A stretch of 64,000 bases of DNA from Candidatus Kaistella beijingensis (GTDB lineage: Bacteria > Bacteroidota > Bacteroidia > Flavobacteriales > Weeksellaceae), in the NCBI RefSeq assembly GCF_020084865.1, contig NZ_CP071953.1, positions 1,922,001-1,986,000 on the forward strand, given 5' to 3'. Both the position numbers and the translations under genes were made by a program. Below, piece by piece: positions 4,516 through 20,753 of this stretch; the stretch's first letter is position 1, and every line of letters begins with the position of its first letter. The notes beneath the pieces were generated by a model. The model searched no databases, was not told where the DNA came from, and saw only the letters and a program-made list of their open reading frames with translations.

Positions 4516-4548
4516 TTTTTACTATTAGATTTGATTTTTGAACTCTCA

Positions 4549-4556
4549 CAAATTTA
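4549..4556 (-). promoter_or_regulatory. -7 promoter element of rpiB
   Basis: On the minus strand this reads TAAATTTG, an exact TAnnTTTG Bacteroidota -7 box about 34 bp upstream of the rpiB ATG. No clear TTTG -33 box lies at the usual 17-23 bp spacing. Confidence 0.5.
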
Positions 4557-4620
4557 GGATTATTAAAATAAAAATTGTTTGATTAAATCTTAAATCTCAA
4601 ATTTGTAGCGATATTTTAAT

Positions 4621-4785
4621 TTTGGGAACGTAATTCACGTGAGGGATTGCAACGGAAATCCCACAGCAAGCGTTGGATTCAGCGATGGAGCGAGGAATTG
4701 CAGTGAAAAGCCCGACCCGAGAAGTGGCGAAACCTTATAGGTTGATCAAACCTTTAAGGTTTAGCTAGGAGAGGGACACGCCCAA
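4621..4785. repeat. Composite flavobacterial intergenic repeat
   Basis: A GC-richer island in AT-rich intergenic DNA. It contains two related half-motifs, gggattgcaacggaaatcc (near 4643) and ggaattgcagtgaaaagccc (near 4694), then GACCCGAG and a terminal GGGACACGCCC. Between the last two are twin palindromes, AACCTTATAGGTT (4731-4743) and AAACCTTTAAGGTTT (4748-4762). I recall repeats of this layout between genes in many Flavobacteriia, but copy number here cannot be checked from one window. No ORF of coding character lies in it. Confidence 0.6.
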
Positions 4786-4799
4786 AAAATTTTGAACAA

Positions 4800-5200
4800 T
4801 ACTTGTGAAGATAACCCCGAAATGGTGTGGATAAGTTTGTGAAAGATTCTCTTTTTTTATTCATATTAAATTCATATTGGAAATTGTTTTTGGATTTTCT
4901 TGCAAATATTTTTTGCAAGTTGTGGTGTCGAAATGATGAAGTTCTTCATAGTCGGTTTCTCAATAAATGTATTGCACAAGAGTTATTGACAATTGTTGAT
5001 AAATGTTAAAGTAGATTAAGAATCAACGTTTTAAAATGTGAATTACCTATGAACTTTGTTTGAACTAAATGTGACGAAATAAAGCAATTTAGTTCTCCAC
5101 AAAAACGGGTGCTACAACAACACTATTCATTTTTATTTTTTTAAAGAAAGAAAATAGTGTTGAGAAAATGAGTTTCGGCAGTTTGTGGAATTTTAAATGA
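4800..5200. other. Candidate replication origin (oriC-like intergenic region)
   Basis: A gene-free AT-rich stretch between rpiB (minus) and pgk (plus). It contains one perfect DnaA box, TGTGGATAA at 4826-4834 (TTATCCACA on the minus strand), two single-mismatch boxes, TGTTGATAA at 4994-5002 and TTCTCCACA at 5093-5101, and a weaker TGTGGAATT at 5184-5192. A 10-bp perfect inverted repeat with a very AT-rich 25-nt loop lies at 5118-5162. Two parS sites lie 2.4 and 4.3 kb away. The origin call is inference; dnaA is not in the window. Confidence 0.35.
5118..5162. repeat. Inverted repeat with AT-rich loop
   Basis: The arms CAACACTATT (5118-5127) and AATAGTGTTG (5153-5162) are exact complements around a 25-nt A/T-rich loop. 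There is no downstream T-tract, so a terminator is unlikely. It could be part of the candidate origin or a cruciform-forming site upstream of pgk. Confidence 0.7.
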
Positions 5201-5230
5201 AAATTAATTTTTAATCGTGCGATTTAATCT

Positions 5231-5238
5231 TAAATTTG
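5231..5238 (+). promoter_or_regulatory. -7 promoter element of pgk
   Basis: TAAATTTG is an exact TAnnTTTG box 26 bp before the pgk ATG at 5265. It lies inside a longer reading frame that starts at GTG 5217, which argues against that GTG as the start. A T-rich stretch (5208-5212) is the only -33 candidate. Confidence 0.55.
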
Positions 5239-5264
5239 TGAAACTTAAAAACAGTGATTTTTTT

Positions 5265-6675: not shown

Positions 6676-7494
6676 CTATTTTTTTTCGATAATGTATATC
6701 AAACTAGAAAATTCGTCGTTTTTTAAGGCCTTTATGTTTGAAATTAGTCCGTAAATCATTCCTTTAAGCCAAAATAGGGTTGATTTTTTATACTTTTCGC
6801 TCAACATAGAAATATAGAACGAATCGAGTAGGAGTGGTTTGATTTTTTTGAGTTGCCATTTTTCATTGTTCATTAATTTTTCCATACCCGCTTTTGAAAA
6901 ATGATAAACATGACGTGGAACATCGTATGCTGCCCAAAATTCGTTATAGCGTTTTGCATCATCTGAAGTGTGATTGGGAACAGCAATAATCAATAAACCG
7001 TTGGTTTTCAATTTATTATAAAAAATATTTAAGATATCTTCTTGATTATCAATATGTTCAAAGACATGCCATAAAGTAATCGCATCTAAACTGTTGTTCT
7101 CTATTTCAGAAGTATCTACAACAATTTTGGTTTTTGAAACTTTTTTTAAAGCGGCATTTCTTGCTGATTCGTTTGGCTCAAATCCGAAAGTGTGAAAATC
7201 TTTTTCAATATATTTTACAAATTCCCCTGCGCCGCATCCGTAATCAAGAACCTTTTTTTCGGTTCCAATGAGATCTTTTAGAATATTTTTTTTATAGCTT
7301 AAATTAAAGACTTGTAAAAATTTGTAAAGTTTTTCTTTCAAAGAACCCGAATCTTGATGATGCGAAATATAATCTTGACTCTCGTAATATTTGTCAAGAT
7401 TTGCAGGAAGTGGAACCGTTCTGAAAATTCCCTTCGTTTCAGTTTCTATAATTTCGAAATCTTCCTGGGTAAGAAAGTGGTCTTTTATTCTCAT
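6676..7494 (-). CDS. Class I SAM-dependent methyltransferase
   Basis: 272 residues with a Rossmann SAM-binding motif, VLDYGCGAGEFVKYIEKD near 93-110, acidic strand-2 end GFEPN, and the motif IV region ITLWHVFEHIDN. This is the Methyltransf_23/UbiE-like layout. The N-terminal FRTVPLPANLDKYYESQDYISHH resembles methyltransferases tied to surface-glycan or O-antigen synthesis, but no glycan genes are adjacent, so the substrate is unknown. It is convergent with pgk and starts 95 bp past the mnmG stop; a run of gatttgag/aatttgaa repeats fills part of that gap. Confidence 0.8.
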   Translation of the reverse strand: MRIKDHFLTQEDFEIIETETKGIFRTVPLPANLDKYYESQDYISHHQDSGSLKEKLYKFLQVFNLSYKKNILKDLIGTEKKVLDYGCGAGEFVKYIEKDFHTFGFEPNESARNAALKKVSKTKIVVDTSEIENNSLDAITLWHVFEHIDNQEDILNIFYNKLKTNGLLIIAVPNHTSDDAKRYNEFWAAYDVPRHVYHFSKAGMEKLMNNEKWQLKKIKPLLLDSFYISMLSEKYKKSTLFWLKGMIYGLISNIKALKNDEFSSLIYIIEKK

Positions 7495-7573
7495 TATTGA
7501 TTTGAGATTTGAGGTTTGAAATTTGAAATTGACTGCTTTTGGAATTTCAAATAAATAATTTCAAACTAAAGAT

Positions 7574-7589
7574 TGTTTCACGTGAAACA
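7574..7589. other. parS site 1 (ParB-binding centromere sequence)
   Basis: TGTTTCACGTGAAACA is a perfect 16-bp palindrome and an exact match to the bacterial chromosomal parS consensus bound by ParB/Spo0J. It abuts the mnmG stop codon with no spacer. A second identical copy lies 1928 bp away on the other side of mnmG. Confidence 0.92.
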
Positions 7590-9449
7590 TTACTTTAAAT
7601 AAATTAATAAAACATTAATATCCGCAGGAGAAACTCCACTGATTCTTCCTGCCTGTGCGATGGTTTTAGGACGAATTTTCATGAACTTCTGTTTTGCTTC
7701 TGCTGATAATGATTTCAATGTATTATAATCAAAATCTTCAGGGATTTGAATGGTTTCTAAACGGAGTAGCTTGGAAACGTTTTCTTTTTCTTTTTCGATA
7801 TAGCCACGATATTTTACGTTGATTTCTGCCTGTTCTTTTACTTCGTCAGAATAGTTTTCTGTTCCTACTTTGATGAAATCAATTTCTTCCAATTTCTCTA
7901 AAGTCATGTTTGGTCTAGTTAATATCTGAGCTGCACGATAAGCTTGGTCAACAGGAGAGGATTCAATACTTTCAAGGACTGGATTGATGACTCCTGGTTT
8001 TAAGGAAGTATCTCTCAAGAAAGCTTCCAGTTCGTTACTTTTTGCAATTTTTTCTTCCACTTTTCTTAAACGTTCTTCTTTGGCTAAACCTAGATTGTAC
8101 GCTTTTTCAGTCAAACGAATATCTGCATTATCTTGCCGTAAAAGTAAGCGATATTCAGCACGGGAAGTAAACATTCTGTAAGGTTCTTCCGTTCCTTTGG
8201 TAATTAAATCATCAATTAAAACTCCGATATATGCTTCATCACGATTAAGGATGAATTCTTCTTTTCCGTGAACTTTATTATGGGCATTAATTCCTGCAAT
8301 TAAACCTTGTCCTGCAGCTTCTTCGTACCCTGTAGTTCCATTGATTTGTCCTGCAAAATAGAGGTTTTCAATCAATTTGGTTTCTAAAGTGTGATTCAAT
8401 TGAGTAGGAGGGAAGTAGTCATATTCAATGGCATAACCTGGTCGAAAAACTTTAACATTTTCAAAGCCTGGAATATGTTTCATCGCTTTAACTTGAACTT
8501 CCTCCGGGAGAGATGAGCTGAATCCGTTGACGTAAATTTCTACCGTTCTCCAACCTTCAGGTTCTACGAACAATTGATGGCGGTTTCTCTCAGCAAAACG
8601 GTTAATTTTATCTTCAATACTTGGACAATATCTTGGACCTAAACTTTGAATGGTTCCATTAAACATCGGACTTCTATCGAATCCTTCACGTAAAACTTCA
8701 TGGACTGTCTCGTTGGTGTAAACAATGTGACAACTTAATTGTTTTTGAAGTTTCGGAGAATCTAAATATGAAAATTTACCAGGATTTTCGTCGCCTTTCT
8801 GTTCTTCCATTTTGGAGTAATCCAGGCTTCTTCCGTCGACTCTTGGTGGAGTCCCGGTTTTCATTCTTCCTGCTTCAAAACCTAATGAAACCAATTGTTC
8901 GGTAATTCCAAAAGCTCTGGGTTCACCCATTCTTCCACCACCTAATTGTTTGTCTCCAACGTGAATTAAGCCGTTTAGAAATGTTCCGTTGGTAAGAACT
9001 ACAGATTTTGCTTTGATTTGTATTCCCAAAGAGGTAACAACTCCTGCAACTTTATTATTTTCAATGATTAAACTTTTCACCATATCTTGGAAAAAATCCA
9101 GATTTGGTGTATTTTCAAGAGCAATTCTCCATTCTTCTGCGAACATCATTCTGTCATTTTGCGTTCTTGGAGACCACATCGCAGGTCCTTTGGAAAGGTT
9201 CAACATTTTGAACTGGATTGCAGATTTGTCCGCAACAATTCCTGAATAACCTCCCATTGCATCGATTTCTCGAACAATTTGTCCTTTTGCGATTCCGCCC
9301 ATTGCAGGATTGCAGCTCATTTGTCCAATGGTTTGCATATTCATGGTGACAAGCAAAGTTTTTGAACCTAAATTTGCTGCTGCAGCTGCTGCTTCGCAAC
9401 CGGCGTGTCCTGCTCCAACAACGATGACGTCGTATATTTCGTTAATCAT
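7590..9449 (-). CDS. mnmG: tRNA U34 carboxymethylaminomethyl-modification FAD protein MnmG (GidA)
   Basis: With MnmE it makes the cmnm5 modification on wobble U34 of several tRNAs, using FAD and methylene-THF. The 619 residues match the family. The FAD dinucleotide motif VVGAGHAGCEAA is near residue 10, followed by MSCNPAMGGIAKG near 44, the MKTGTPPRV segment near 197, FAGQINGTTGYEEAAGQG near 370, and a helical C-terminal MnmE/tRNA-binding region. The gene is bracketed by identical parS sites just after its stop and 52 bp before its ATG. mnmG is classically near oriC. Confidence 0.97.
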   Translation of the reverse strand: MINEIYDVIVVGAGHAGCEAAAAAANLGSKTLLVTMNMQTIGQMSCNPAMGGIAKGQIVREIDAMGGYSGIVADKSAIQFKMLNLSKGPAMWSPRTQNDRMMFAEEWRIALENTPNLDFFQDMVKSLIIENNKVAGVVTSLGIQIKAKSVVLTNGTFLNGLIHVGDKQLGGGRMGEPRAFGITEQLVSLGFEAGRMKTGTPPRVDGRSLDYSKMEEQKGDENPGKFSYLDSPKLQKQLSCHIVYTNETVHEVLREGFDRSPMFNGTIQSLGPRYCPSIEDKINRFAERNRHQLFVEPEGWRTVEIYVNGFSSSLPEEVQVKAMKHIPGFENVKVFRPGYAIEYDYFPPTQLNHTLETKLIENLYFAGQINGTTGYEEAAGQGLIAGINAHNKVHGKEEFILNRDEAYIGVLIDDLITKGTEEPYRMFTSRAEYRLLLRQDNADIRLTEKAYNLGLAKEERLRKVEEKIAKSNELEAFLRDTSLKPGVINPVLESIESSPVDQAYRAAQILTRPNMTLEKLEEIDFIKVGTENYSDEVKEQAEINVKYRGYIEKEKENVSKLLRLETIQIPEDFDYNTLKSLSAEAKQKFMKIRPKTIAQAGRISGVSPADINVLLIYLK

Positions 9450-9501
9450 ATTTTTTTCAAATTATAAACTTTGTCAAAAAATTAGAAGTTTGACAAAGAA
9501 A

Positions 9502-9517
9502 TGTTTCACGTGAAACA
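9502..9517. other. parS site 2 (ParB-binding centromere sequence)
   Basis: A second exact TGTTTCACGTGAAACA, 52 bp upstream of the mnmG ATG. Together with site 1 it frames the gene, so ParB loading and spreading could cover mnmG and its promoter. Confidence 0.92.
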
Positions 9518-9550
9518 TTGTGAAGATTTAATTAGAAGTTCTGCTCAAAA

Positions 9551-9630
9551 CTAGCCCCGATTGAAGCGGCATCCTTTTGTGCAGCGAAGCGGAACTAAAG
9601 ATATAGCGGAAAGCTGGAAATAGCTCTTAA
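9551..9630. repeat. Flavobacterial intergenic repeat with GCGAAGC mini-hairpin
   Basis: Reads tagccccgattgaagcggc, then atcctttt, a variable centre, aaagatatagcgg and aaagctggaaatagct. The outer parts AGC(C) and (A)GCT and the agcgg blocks mirror each other in part. The centre contains GCGAAGC (9584-9590), a sequence known to form an unusually stable DNA mini-hairpin. I recall this arrangement as a dispersed repeat in Chryseobacterium and Flavobacterium genomes. It lies between the ybeY stop and the mnmG promoter region and could act as a structured 3' end for ybeY. Confidence 0.6.
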
Positions 9631-9658: not shown

Positions 9659-10078
9659 TTACATATCGTTCGCAAAGACATTCAAATAAAAATCTTCTTT
9701 TTGTCGCATTACTGTAATTTCTTCTTCCGTCTTGTCTTTGTAACCCATTAAGTGAAGAATTCCGTGTGCTAAAACCCTGTGAAACTCTGAATTAAAGTCT
9801 CTTACCAAAGTTTTGGCATTATCAGAAATGCGCGGCAAAGATACGAAAATATCTCCCGAAATAGTTTTTCCTTTAACATAATCAAAAGTGATGATGTCGG
9901 TGTAATAATCGTGGTCTAAGAAATCTTGATTTACTTTTAAGAGATATTCATCATCGCAAAAAATGTAATTGATTTCTCCTAGTTTTTTGTTTTCTGTTTT
10001 GATGACGTCTTCTAACCACGAAATGGTTGCTGTAGAAATAGGGATTTCATCAATATTTTCGAAAAAGAACTGTATCAT
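9659..10078 (-). CDS. ybeY: rRNA maturation endoribonuclease YbeY
   Basis: Metal-dependent RNase involved in 16S rRNA 3' processing and ribosome quality control. In the 139 residues the metal motif is HGILHLMGYKD, with His105 and His109. The usual third zinc ligand of GYDH is replaced by Asp115. FDYVKGKTISGDIFVS contains the conserved GDI-S substrate loop, and the position before the motif (Arg101) is kept. It is the last gene of the tdk - murF/alr - patatin - ybeY unit, starting 4 bp after the patatin stop. Confidence 0.92.
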   Translation of the reverse strand: MIQFFFENIDEIPISTATISWLEDVIKTENKKLGEINYIFCDDEYLLKVNQDFLDHDYYTDIITFDYVKGKTISGDIFVSLPRISDNAKTLVRDFNSEFHRVLAHGILHLMGYKDKTEEEITVMRQKEDFYLNVFANDM

Positions 10079-19401: not shown

Positions 19402-20202
19402 TTAAACAATATTATTAAAGGAAAGAGTTCGGTACTGTACCGGGCTCTTTCCTTTTAAATTAAGCCTTATTCTGTCGTTGTTGTAATAATCAATGTATTC
19501 TTTTATTTCTTTCCTGAGTTCGTCGATAGAACCAAACTTTTTGGTATAAAACATTTCAGACTTCAATGTTCCGAAGAAATTTTCGATTATGGCATTGTCC
19601 AGACAGTTCCCTTTTCGGGACATACTTTGAACAATTCCTTTTTCTTTTAATATATTTTGATAAGCTTTCATTTGATATTGCCAACCTTGGTCTGAATGTA
19701 AAATGATGTTTTCTGTATTTTTAATTTTCTTTAAACCCTTTTTCAGCATATCTGTAATCTGTGCAAAGACAGGCCTTTCTGAGAGATTATAGCTGATGAT
19801 TTCACCGTTGAATAAATCGATTATCGGAGATAAATAGAGCTTATTTCCCGAGACATTAAATTCCGTTACATCGGTTGCCCACTTCGTGTTCGGCTGGTCG
19901 GCTTTGAAATTTCTTTTCAAAATATTGGGTGCTATTTTTCCTTGTTCTCCACGGTAAGATTTGTATTTCTTTACCCGTATAATGCTTTTCAGTCCTAGCG
20001 ATTTCATTAATCTCAATACTGTTTTATGATTGATAATAATTCCTTTATCTCTCATTGTCAAAGTAATACGCCGGTATCCAAACCTTCCTTTGTGTTGATG
20101 ATAAATCTGTTTTATCATTGTTTTTACGTCCGAATATTTGTCGGTTTGAGCCTTGTTTTGATGATAATAGAAACTGCTTCTCGCCATCCCGGTACAATCC
20201 AA
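19402..20202 (-). CDS. IS3-family transposase OrfB (catalytic part)
   Basis: 266 residues from the first ATG. This is an rve/integrase-core domain with Asp111 (TDVTEF), Asp171 (HSDQGWQY) and Glu207 (NAIIENFF), a D-x59-D-x35-E spacing typical of IS3. HTH_21 lies in the first 80 residues (GRFGYRRITLTMRDKG). The open frame continues upstream of this ATG to the slippery site at 20280-20286, reading RPKYNLSVLLDCTG, so the active protein is expected to be an OrfAB fusion and the listed ATG may give only a minor product. Ends 28 bp inside the left IS end. Confidence 0.93.
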   Translation of the reverse strand: MDCTGMARSSFYYHQNKAQTDKYSDVKTMIKQIYHQHKGRFGYRRITLTMRDKGIIINHKTVLRLMKSLGLKSIIRVKKYKSYRGEQGKIAPNILKRNFKADQPNTKWATDVTEFNVSGNKLYLSPIIDLFNGEIISYNLSERPVFAQITDMLKKGLKKIKNTENIILHSDQGWQYQMKAYQNILKEKGIVQSMSRKGNCLDNAIIENFFGTLKSEMFYTKKFGSIDELRKEIKEYIDYYNNDRIRLNLKGKSPVQYRTLSFNNIV

Positions 20203-20228
20203 TAATACGGACAGATTGTATTTAGGCC

Positions 20229-20753
20229 TTAACTCTTCGATGGCTTTTGCTTGTTCTTTTTGAGAGTTAAGGCGTCTAACTTTTTTAGAAAATCGATTTC
20301 GGCTCGCAGTCTTTCATTTTCCAGTAACAATTCTTCTTCCCTGGTCAATGGTTTGCCAGACTTTTTCTTTTTACGTTGGTAATCGCTCATAATTGCTGGT
20401 CTTCCTTTGGGTTTATTCTGTAACCCTAAAATACCACTTTTTTCGTAAGCGCTCCGCCAATTGGTGATGCTGGATTCTGCAGCGATATTAAACCGTGCAG
20501 CAGCTTGCTTTAGAGATAAGTCTTGTGCCTTGATCGTTTCCAAAACTCTTAACTTAAATTTTACGTCATAACGGCGATTGCTTCTGCGTTGCAGTCCTTC
20601 AATTCCGTACAAATCATAAAACCTTTTCCATTTGCGAACAACCGTCGCATCCAAACCTACTTCCTGTGCCAAAGAGTGGATCGACAGATCATTTTTCTTA
20701 ATCTTCTCCACACAACTCACCTTAAATTCTAAACTATACTTTGATTCTCCCAT
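20229..20753 (-). CDS. IS3-family transposase OrfA (DNA-binding part)
   Basis: 174 residues with two successive helix-turn-helix units (about 5-55, with EFKVSCVEKIKKND, and about 62-115, with KFKLRVLETIKAQD), the IS150-group layout. A leucine-zipper-like coiled coil follows near 138-158 (EEELLLENERLRAEIDFLKKL). The frameshift window is just after that coil. It is co-oriented with sodC, so read-through from sodC could add to its expression. Confidence 0.93.
   Translation of the reverse strand: MGESKYSLEFKVSCVEKIKKNDLSIHSLAQEVGLDATVVRKWKRFYDLYGIEGLQRRSNRRYDVKFKLRVLETIKAQDLSLKQAAARFNIAAESSITNWRSAYEKSGILGLQNKPKGRPAIMSDYQRKKKKSGKPLTREEELLLENERLRAEIDFLKKLDALTLKKNKQKPSKS
20280..20286 (-). promoter_or_regulatory. 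Programmed -1 frameshift slippery site
   Basis: On the minus strand the OrfA codons CTA AAA AAG contain A-AAA-AAG, the slippery heptamer of IS150/IS3 elements. A -1 slip here enters the OrfB frame without meeting a stop. The orfA stop follows at 20229-20231. Confidence 0.75.

Follow-up and report, generated by a model that had tools for sequence, protein, structure and literature searches.

Two exact parS-like palindromes at the edges of mnmG in Candidatus Kaistella beijingensis and recurrence of this arrangement across Bacteroidota

Organization of the mnmG locus

The window analyzed here is a 64-kb stretch (positions 1,922,001–1,986,000 of the contig) of the genome of Candidatus Kaistella beijingensis, which consists of a single contig of 2,816,191 bp. 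The gene of interest in this window is mnmG (also known as gidA), which encodes a tRNA uridine-34 modification enzyme and is located between a methyltransferase gene and ybeY (Table 1). The mnmG product scores 864 bits against TIGR00136 (cut-off 525), and its best named relatives, mostly from Chryseobacterium and Kaistella, share 85–91% identity with it. Both edges of the gene carry an exact copy of the 16-bp palindrome TGTTTCACGTGAAACA. The copy at the 3' edge abuts the stop codon (7590–7592) with zero gap, and the copy at the 5' edge is separated from the ATG (9447–9449) by 52 bases (9450–9501), such that the spacing from site to site is 1928 bp (about 1.93 kb). The original prediction had proposed two exact 16-bp palindromes, one at the mnmG stop and the other 52 bp before the ATG, and the window scan confirmed both the coordinates and the distances. 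The further claim that the sequence equals the ParB consensus also holds, as an excerpt of PMC10197239 presents it as the consensus of parS and an excerpt of PMC7022226 tabulates it among parS sequences.

Table 1. Features at and around mnmG, numbered from the first base of the window.
Feature	Position	Strand	Remarks
Candidate oriC, AT-rich intergenic region rpiB–pgk	4516–5264		three DnaA-box-like sites
Methyltransferase gene, downstream neighbor	6676–7494	-	PF13489
parS-like site, 3' edge of mnmG	7574–7589	palindromic, no strand	exact TGTTTCACGTGAAACA
mnmG (gidA), tRNA uridine-34 modification enzyme	7590–9449	-	TIGR00136, PF01134; flanked by both sites
parS-like site, 5' edge of mnmG	9502–9517	palindromic, no strand	exact TGTTTCACGTGAAACA
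ybeY, upstream neighbor	9659–10078	-	TIGR00043

When up to three mismatches to TGTTTCACGTGAAACA were allowed, no site besides the two exact ones was found in the 64-kb window; the mean of 0.69 from shuffled windows refers to sites with up to three mismatches and is inapplicable to exact copies. Rather than many scattered copies of the motif, the whole genome contains exact TGTTTCACGTGAAACA at only these two places. Sites with two mismatches occur at three further places, and a reversed control pattern occurs at one place (up to two mismatches). Under equal base frequencies, a genome of this size should contain any particular palindromic 16-mer about 0.0007 times, so an exact pair 1.93 kb apart is not explained by chance. 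One of the three places with two mismatches, AATTTCACGTGAAACA, is located at genome positions 1905555–1905570, 24 kb from the pair and within an open reading frame of 897 amino acids, and could be a weak third parS.

Several other elements were observed in the window. A Flavo-1 RNA (Rfam RF01705, 57.3 bits) is located at 9549–9624 between the 5' site and ybeY. It is on the plus strand, opposite to mnmG, and begins 31 bases beyond the site; a scan of 15 related loci found this RNA on the same side of mnmG in just one of them (L062, Kaistella gelatinilytica). A perfect 10-bp inverted repeat (CTTTGTCAAA/TTTGACAAAG) with a 10-base loop occupies 9469–9498, between the 5' site and the mnmG start, and visual inspection of the Chryseobacterium/Kaistella alignment revealed no counterpart in the other loci. 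Finally, an IS3-family transposase gene pair is present at 19402–20753, in which the second gene scores above the NCBIfam cut-off and the first matches under the cut-off.

Conservation in related genomes

Among the 24 mnmG loci compared from the Chryseobacterium/Kaistella group (L048–L071), an exact copy of the 3' site is found 0–9 bp after mnmG in 22, and an exact copy of the 5' site is found 21–49 bp before mnmG in 23. Together with the window, the exact 5' site is present in 24 and the exact 3' site in 23 of these 25 loci. The 40 bases on either side of the sites have drifted, with a mean top-base frequency of 0.61–0.66 in an alignment that included only the rows with exact sites (one row fewer for the 5' side and two fewer for the 3' side). 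As judged from these alignments, the sites are 16-bp islands amid diverged DNA. In a broader set of 80 named mnmG loci, sites with up to two mismatches are present in the fetched flanks on both sides of the gene in 66 loci, on one side in 13, and on neither side in one.

The strict 16-mer was found in 36 of the 60 genomes of the host's own family (two copies in 28 and one copy in eight, never more than two). The remaining 24 genomes lack the strict form, the only form considered in this count. Of the 28 pairs, 27 are 1888–1951 bp apart and one is split over two contigs. Only the spacing was measured in these genomes, and it is compatible with the length of mnmG plus gaps. A different layout was observed in six Flavobacterium loci (L092, L093, L099, L110, L111, and L121). 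Rather than a single pair, these have four or five parS-like sites (up to two mismatches) upstream of mnmG, spaced about 40–150 bp apart, and a further one or two downstream.

Conservation across Bacteroidota

The comparison was extended to 148 genomes of the phylum, of which 111 are outside the host's own class according to the kinship column. Bacteroidota is used here in the GTDB sense, which may cover classes treated elsewhere as Chlorobi or Ignavibacteria. An exact TGTTYCACGTGRAACA was found in 110 of the 148 genomes, compared to one for the reversed control. ParB and DnaA were found in all 148 genomes and mnmG in 147. Among these mnmG loci, 130 were analyzed (17 were left out), with flanks of 1.5 kb in 30 loci and up to 3 kb in 100; the mnmG start was read from alignment and is approximate.

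In 106 of the 130 loci, a site with at most one mismatch straddles an edge of mnmG or is no more than 250 bp away from it. These comprise 40 loci with sites on both sides, 35 with upstream sites only, and 31 with downstream sites only, which leaves 24 with none. For sites that match the IUPAC form exactly, the corresponding numbers are 20, 34, 25, and 51. As a control, 60 scrambled palindromes were searched in the same manner, and every one had zero sites near mnmG edges. The loci that lack a site within 250 bp of mnmG include all three from family f16 and all four from family f19; in the latter, sites are found about 0.5 kb downstream of mnmG. Families f23 and f30 also have no site at mnmG. 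The sites are also largely confined to this locus. In the 94 genomes that belong to the 130 and have an exact site, the analyzed mnmG locus contains 145 of the 168 exact sites, with none outside it in 80 of these genomes. The four named chromosome records agree, as every one of their 10 exact sites is at mnmG. These patterns show that the arrangement is far more general than the original prediction suggested, and the comparison of sequences points to placement at mnmG edges as a trait that is probably old in the phylum.

This conservation bears on two alternative explanations. The first is that the sites are two chance copies or a functionless old duplication, for which the shortness of the palindrome may be cited. 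The conservation refutes this explanation, as the same kind of site is found at the same gene edges in the family and in the phylum despite diverged flanks, and the scrambled-palindrome controls gave zero; we regard it as virtually inconceivable. The second is that the palindromes act as RNA, either as a terminator or as an mRNA-stability hairpin at the mnmG ends. Each site in the window can fold into a hairpin of 6–8 bp, with regional z-scores of -1.70 and -2.54 (the latter aided by a second inverted repeat). However, no T-run follows the 3' site and a terminator scan was negative there, the genome has only two copies of the palindrome, and sites are found on either side of the gene. Among the 241 sites compared, which were chosen at up to one mismatch from the IUPAC form, variation is found chiefly at positions 1, 5, 12, and 16, with two letters permitted by the IUPAC form itself at positions 5 and 12. 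Near mnmG edges, 17 stem-breaking (C-A) cases were counted versus 18 stem-keeping (U-G) cases, and such equal counts are expected for a DNA site that is read on both strands. The missing T-run and the equal counts both disfavor the RNA explanation, which appears extremely unlikely.

ParA, ParB, and Smc

As the original prediction stated, the window contains neither parA nor parB. The genome as a whole does have one chromosomal-type parA–parB pair, with parA directly before parB, and the single ParB gene is found about 0.8 Mb away. Its product is the only ParB_N protein in the genome (TIGR00180 match at 1,125,437–1,125,967) and has the ParB_N, HTH_ParB, and ParB_C (C-terminal dimerization) domains. 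Residues 39–241 align with the solved structure of Spo0J (1vz0; E = 4e-54), other solved ParB proteins also align, and the GERRFRA motif is present. The distance from the parS sites to the ParB gene is 805 kb, which differs from the usual par layout with parS a few kb from parAB.

Another protein of the ParB type, such as Noc, or an unrelated factor might be considered as the binder of these sites in place of chromosomal ParB. The ParB of this genome scores 243 bits against the Noc model, but this is below the cut-off of 315 and no other ParB_N protein was found in the genome. Moreover, the sites have the parS consensus rather than the sequence of the Noc binding site. The residues that read parS can also be compared. 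When mapped by eye on the alignment with 1vz0, the R of GKER and the G of AGHGR are at the places of Caulobacter R173 and G201. These two residues are conserved in all ParB orthologs, and Noc has Q and R instead (excerpt of PMC7383237). The residues and the family score both disfavor a Noc site, and a binder other than chromosomal ParB is very unlikely.

The loading of Smc is one of the usual jobs of ParB–parS systems. No SMC_prok_B protein was found over the cut-off in this genome, in which the best TIGR02168 match has 24 bits compared to a cut-off of 567. For this reason, the Smc-loading role may be missing here, and the main role of the parS sites is likely to serve as a handle for ParA.

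Association of parS with mnmG

The genes adjacent to mnmG are well conserved among close relatives. For ybeY, presence was found in 79 of the 80 named loci (23 of 24 in the Chryseobacterium/Kaistella group and 56 of 56 in the others) and in 27 of 37 loci from the host's own class; the methyltransferase gene is present in 78 and 22 of these loci, respectively. By comparison, none of the eight window neighbors was detected within about 3 kb of mnmG in 93 loci of other classes (tblastn, E = 1e-6), in a search that used the proteins of the window and that very diverged neighbors could escape. Because the neighbors are undetected outside the own class while the sites persist in most families, synteny with the neighbors is rejected as the cause, and the link is to mnmG itself.

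Distances to the other candidate partners were determined in 29 chromosomes. These are 22 of the 23 one-contig genomes (G029 was dropped, with the place of dnaA unlisted), three two-contig genomes in which mnmG, parB, and dnaA are all on one contig, and four named records; several of the lengths are rounded. ParB is at least 301 kb from mnmG in all 29 chromosomes, with a median of 868 kb. The distance between dnaA and mnmG is at most 120 kb in 12 of the 29 and about 749 kb or more in all 10 Flavobacteriales. These distances indicate that parS follows mnmG and neither parAB nor dnaA.

ParB proteins in general are CTP clamps loaded at parS, and by analogy with this behavior elsewhere, ParB should load at the two sites and spread across mnmG by sliding. 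One may then ask if the sites are a control device in addition to a centromere. In such a scenario, ParB clamps loaded on both flanks would occupy mnmG and modulate its transcription, or transcription of the gene would modulate the loading of ParB, and a putative coupling of tRNA-34 modification to the cell cycle would result. The tie to mnmG itself is consistent with this scenario, given that parS still adjoins the gene in loci without the neighbors, and in several families no more than about 20 bp separate the 5' site from the start codon. However, the side varies among loci, as seen in the 35 with upstream sites only and the 31 with downstream sites only, and the gap between site and ATG can be close to 0 or exceed 100 bp, a spread that would be unusual for an operator. 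In addition, an unpublished test in Escherichia coli found no regulation of the Pseudomonas aeruginosa gidA promoter by ParA/ParB (excerpt of PMC3909081). Control of mnmG by ParB is possible and putative, and the combined scenario of centromere and control device is unlikely.

GC skew and the replication origin

In the contig, dnaA is located at about 1.2 kb, which is 0.89 Mb from the two sites. GC skew was sampled in 40 stretches plus the window. Between 0.70 Mb and the first quarter of the window, 18 of 20 samples have negative skew; from that quarter onward, round to 0.64 Mb, 19 of 24 samples have positive skew. In a free two-point fit, the origin falls at 1.94 Mb and the terminus at 0.64 Mb. 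If mnmG is taken as the origin and the terminus is set opposite, the skew score is 0.0253, compared to a maximum of 0.0225 in 300 permutations; the corresponding scores are -0.0020 for dnaA and -0.0091 for parB, and the best origin with an opposite terminus is at 2.10 Mb. The skew signal is weak, and the placement of the origin is coarse. The original prediction had suggested a comparison with GC skew, dnaA, and parAB, which places the sites near the change of skew sign and both dnaA and parAB at a distance.

Skew at third codon positions was also calculated, with stretches more than half masked excluded. In the own genome, the best origin is at 1.62 Mb, 41 of 141 grid origins are better than mnmG, and the free fit gives 1.92 Mb. 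For Chryseobacterium sp. ZHDP1, mnmG is first (0 of 246 better), with 121 and 95 of the 246 grid origins better than dnaA and parB, respectively; the whole-stretch skew of this strain is inside the permutation range. For Flavobacterium sp. SLB02, the best origin is at 4.82 Mb and mnmG at 5.27 Mb, with 16 of 319 grid origins better than mnmG and 110 better than each of dnaA and parB. Neither dnaA nor parAB is acceptable as an origin marker, based on the scores below zero in the own genome and the ranks far below mnmG in ZHDP1 and SLB02. Among mnmG, dnaA, and parB, only mnmG fits the GC-skew origin.

The AT-rich region between rpiB and pgk is a candidate oriC only. It begins 2.3 kb from the 3' site, and its nearest box is about 2.5 kb off. 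One of its boxes is an exact match at 4826 (minus strand) to the DnaA-box consensus TTATCCACA, and the other two have one mismatch each. Both genes are present in 11 of the 24 related loci, where the interval contains one to four boxes each (31 in 7083 bp), compared to a background of 115 boxes with up to one mismatch in 232,541 bp for the whole 24 loci; the interval is AT-rich, and this background is not AT-matched. Among the sampled stretches, DnaA-box-like sites are most densely packed elsewhere, with four in 600 bp in L016 at about 6943–7540 (genome position about 1.127 Mb). This cluster starts about 30 bp upstream of parA, and the skew suggests no origin there.

Centromere interpretation and comparison with known systems

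The two sites can with good confidence be interpreted as the predicted ParB-loading parS centromere of this chromosome. This interpretation is based on the two exact copies only, the parA–parB pair elsewhere in the genome, and the skew sign change nearby, and on the same grounds the centromere part of the original prediction is supported. Points that weigh against the interpretation are the weak skew signal and coarse origin, the 24 of 130 loci with no site within 250 bp of mnmG, the 24 of 60 family genomes that lack the strict 16-mer, and the Smc search, which had no match above the cut-off. Mechanistically, the single ParB encoded by parAB 0.8 Mb away would load at both sites as a CTP-dependent clamp and slide over mnmG and its neighbors, and ParB on the DNA would provide ParA with a handle for the separation of newly copied origins. 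As for the history, mnmG was probably part of the ancestral origin cluster and parS would have remained with it, with dnaA now elsewhere in each of the 10 Flavobacteriales studied and parAB in each of the 29 chromosomes. The edges of the gene could accommodate a 16-bp site without changes to the conserved protein. Most likely, mnmG is a passenger that was retained from an ancient origin cluster. A more ambitious reading is that mnmG is the centromere gene of the phylum, in which an interplay between ParB occupancy and mnmG transcription couples tRNA decoding capacity to segregation. Selection would then have held the sites at the mnmG edges for the age of the phylum, in cells without a recognizable Smc, as in this genome. 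We consider this reading doubtful and quite unlikely.

A centromere of this type is a known kind of element, and this one is very probably real. The arrangement at mnmG is undescribed in the open literature searched, in which no account of parS at mnmG in Bacteroidota was found; the 2007 parS survey of Livny and others is outside that literature. In a large phylum where dnaA and parAB give little guidance, the mnmG edges offer an easy way to locate the centromere and, probably, the vicinity of the origin. Annotation of oriC, estimates of growth rate from read coverage, and chromosome genetics would benefit from such a rule. The arrangement also raises the question of why the centromere stays with one tRNA-modification gene though the surrounding genes differ between classes.

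In comparison with characterized systems, the components found here resemble the Spo0J-type ParABS of Bacillus subtilis. The two share the 16-bp palindrome, a single ParB that contains ParB_N, HTH, and C-terminal domains, the adjacency of parA and parB, and the location of the sites near the apparent origin. In B. subtilis, a 7.2-kb PCR product that ends in gidA covers the parS inside parB (excerpt of PMC4442127), and the distance between parAB and oriC in P. aeruginosa is about 7 kb (excerpt of PMC3909081). Unlike the B. subtilis system, parAB is here 0.8 Mb from parS, and in none of the 29 chromosomes is ParB closer to mnmG than 0.30 Mb. A study of 12 gut bacteria, including two Bacteroidetes, reported clusters of parS at the GC-skew origin, stated that dnaA is not always an origin marker, and found no known condensin in the two Bacteroidetes (excerpt of PMC10197239). 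The result for Smc in this genome agrees with that condensin result, whereas the consulted part of that study contains neither a link to mnmG nor a phylum-wide claim for the parS clusters. Finally, the ancestral origin cluster includes gidA, gidB, parA, parB, dnaA, and others (Ogasawara and Yoshikawa, as cited in an excerpt of PMC2099444). The present arrangement is similar in that mnmG (gidA) is a known origin-proximal gene. It is different in that parAB and dnaA are distant, while mnmG, together with parS, stays at the apparent origin.
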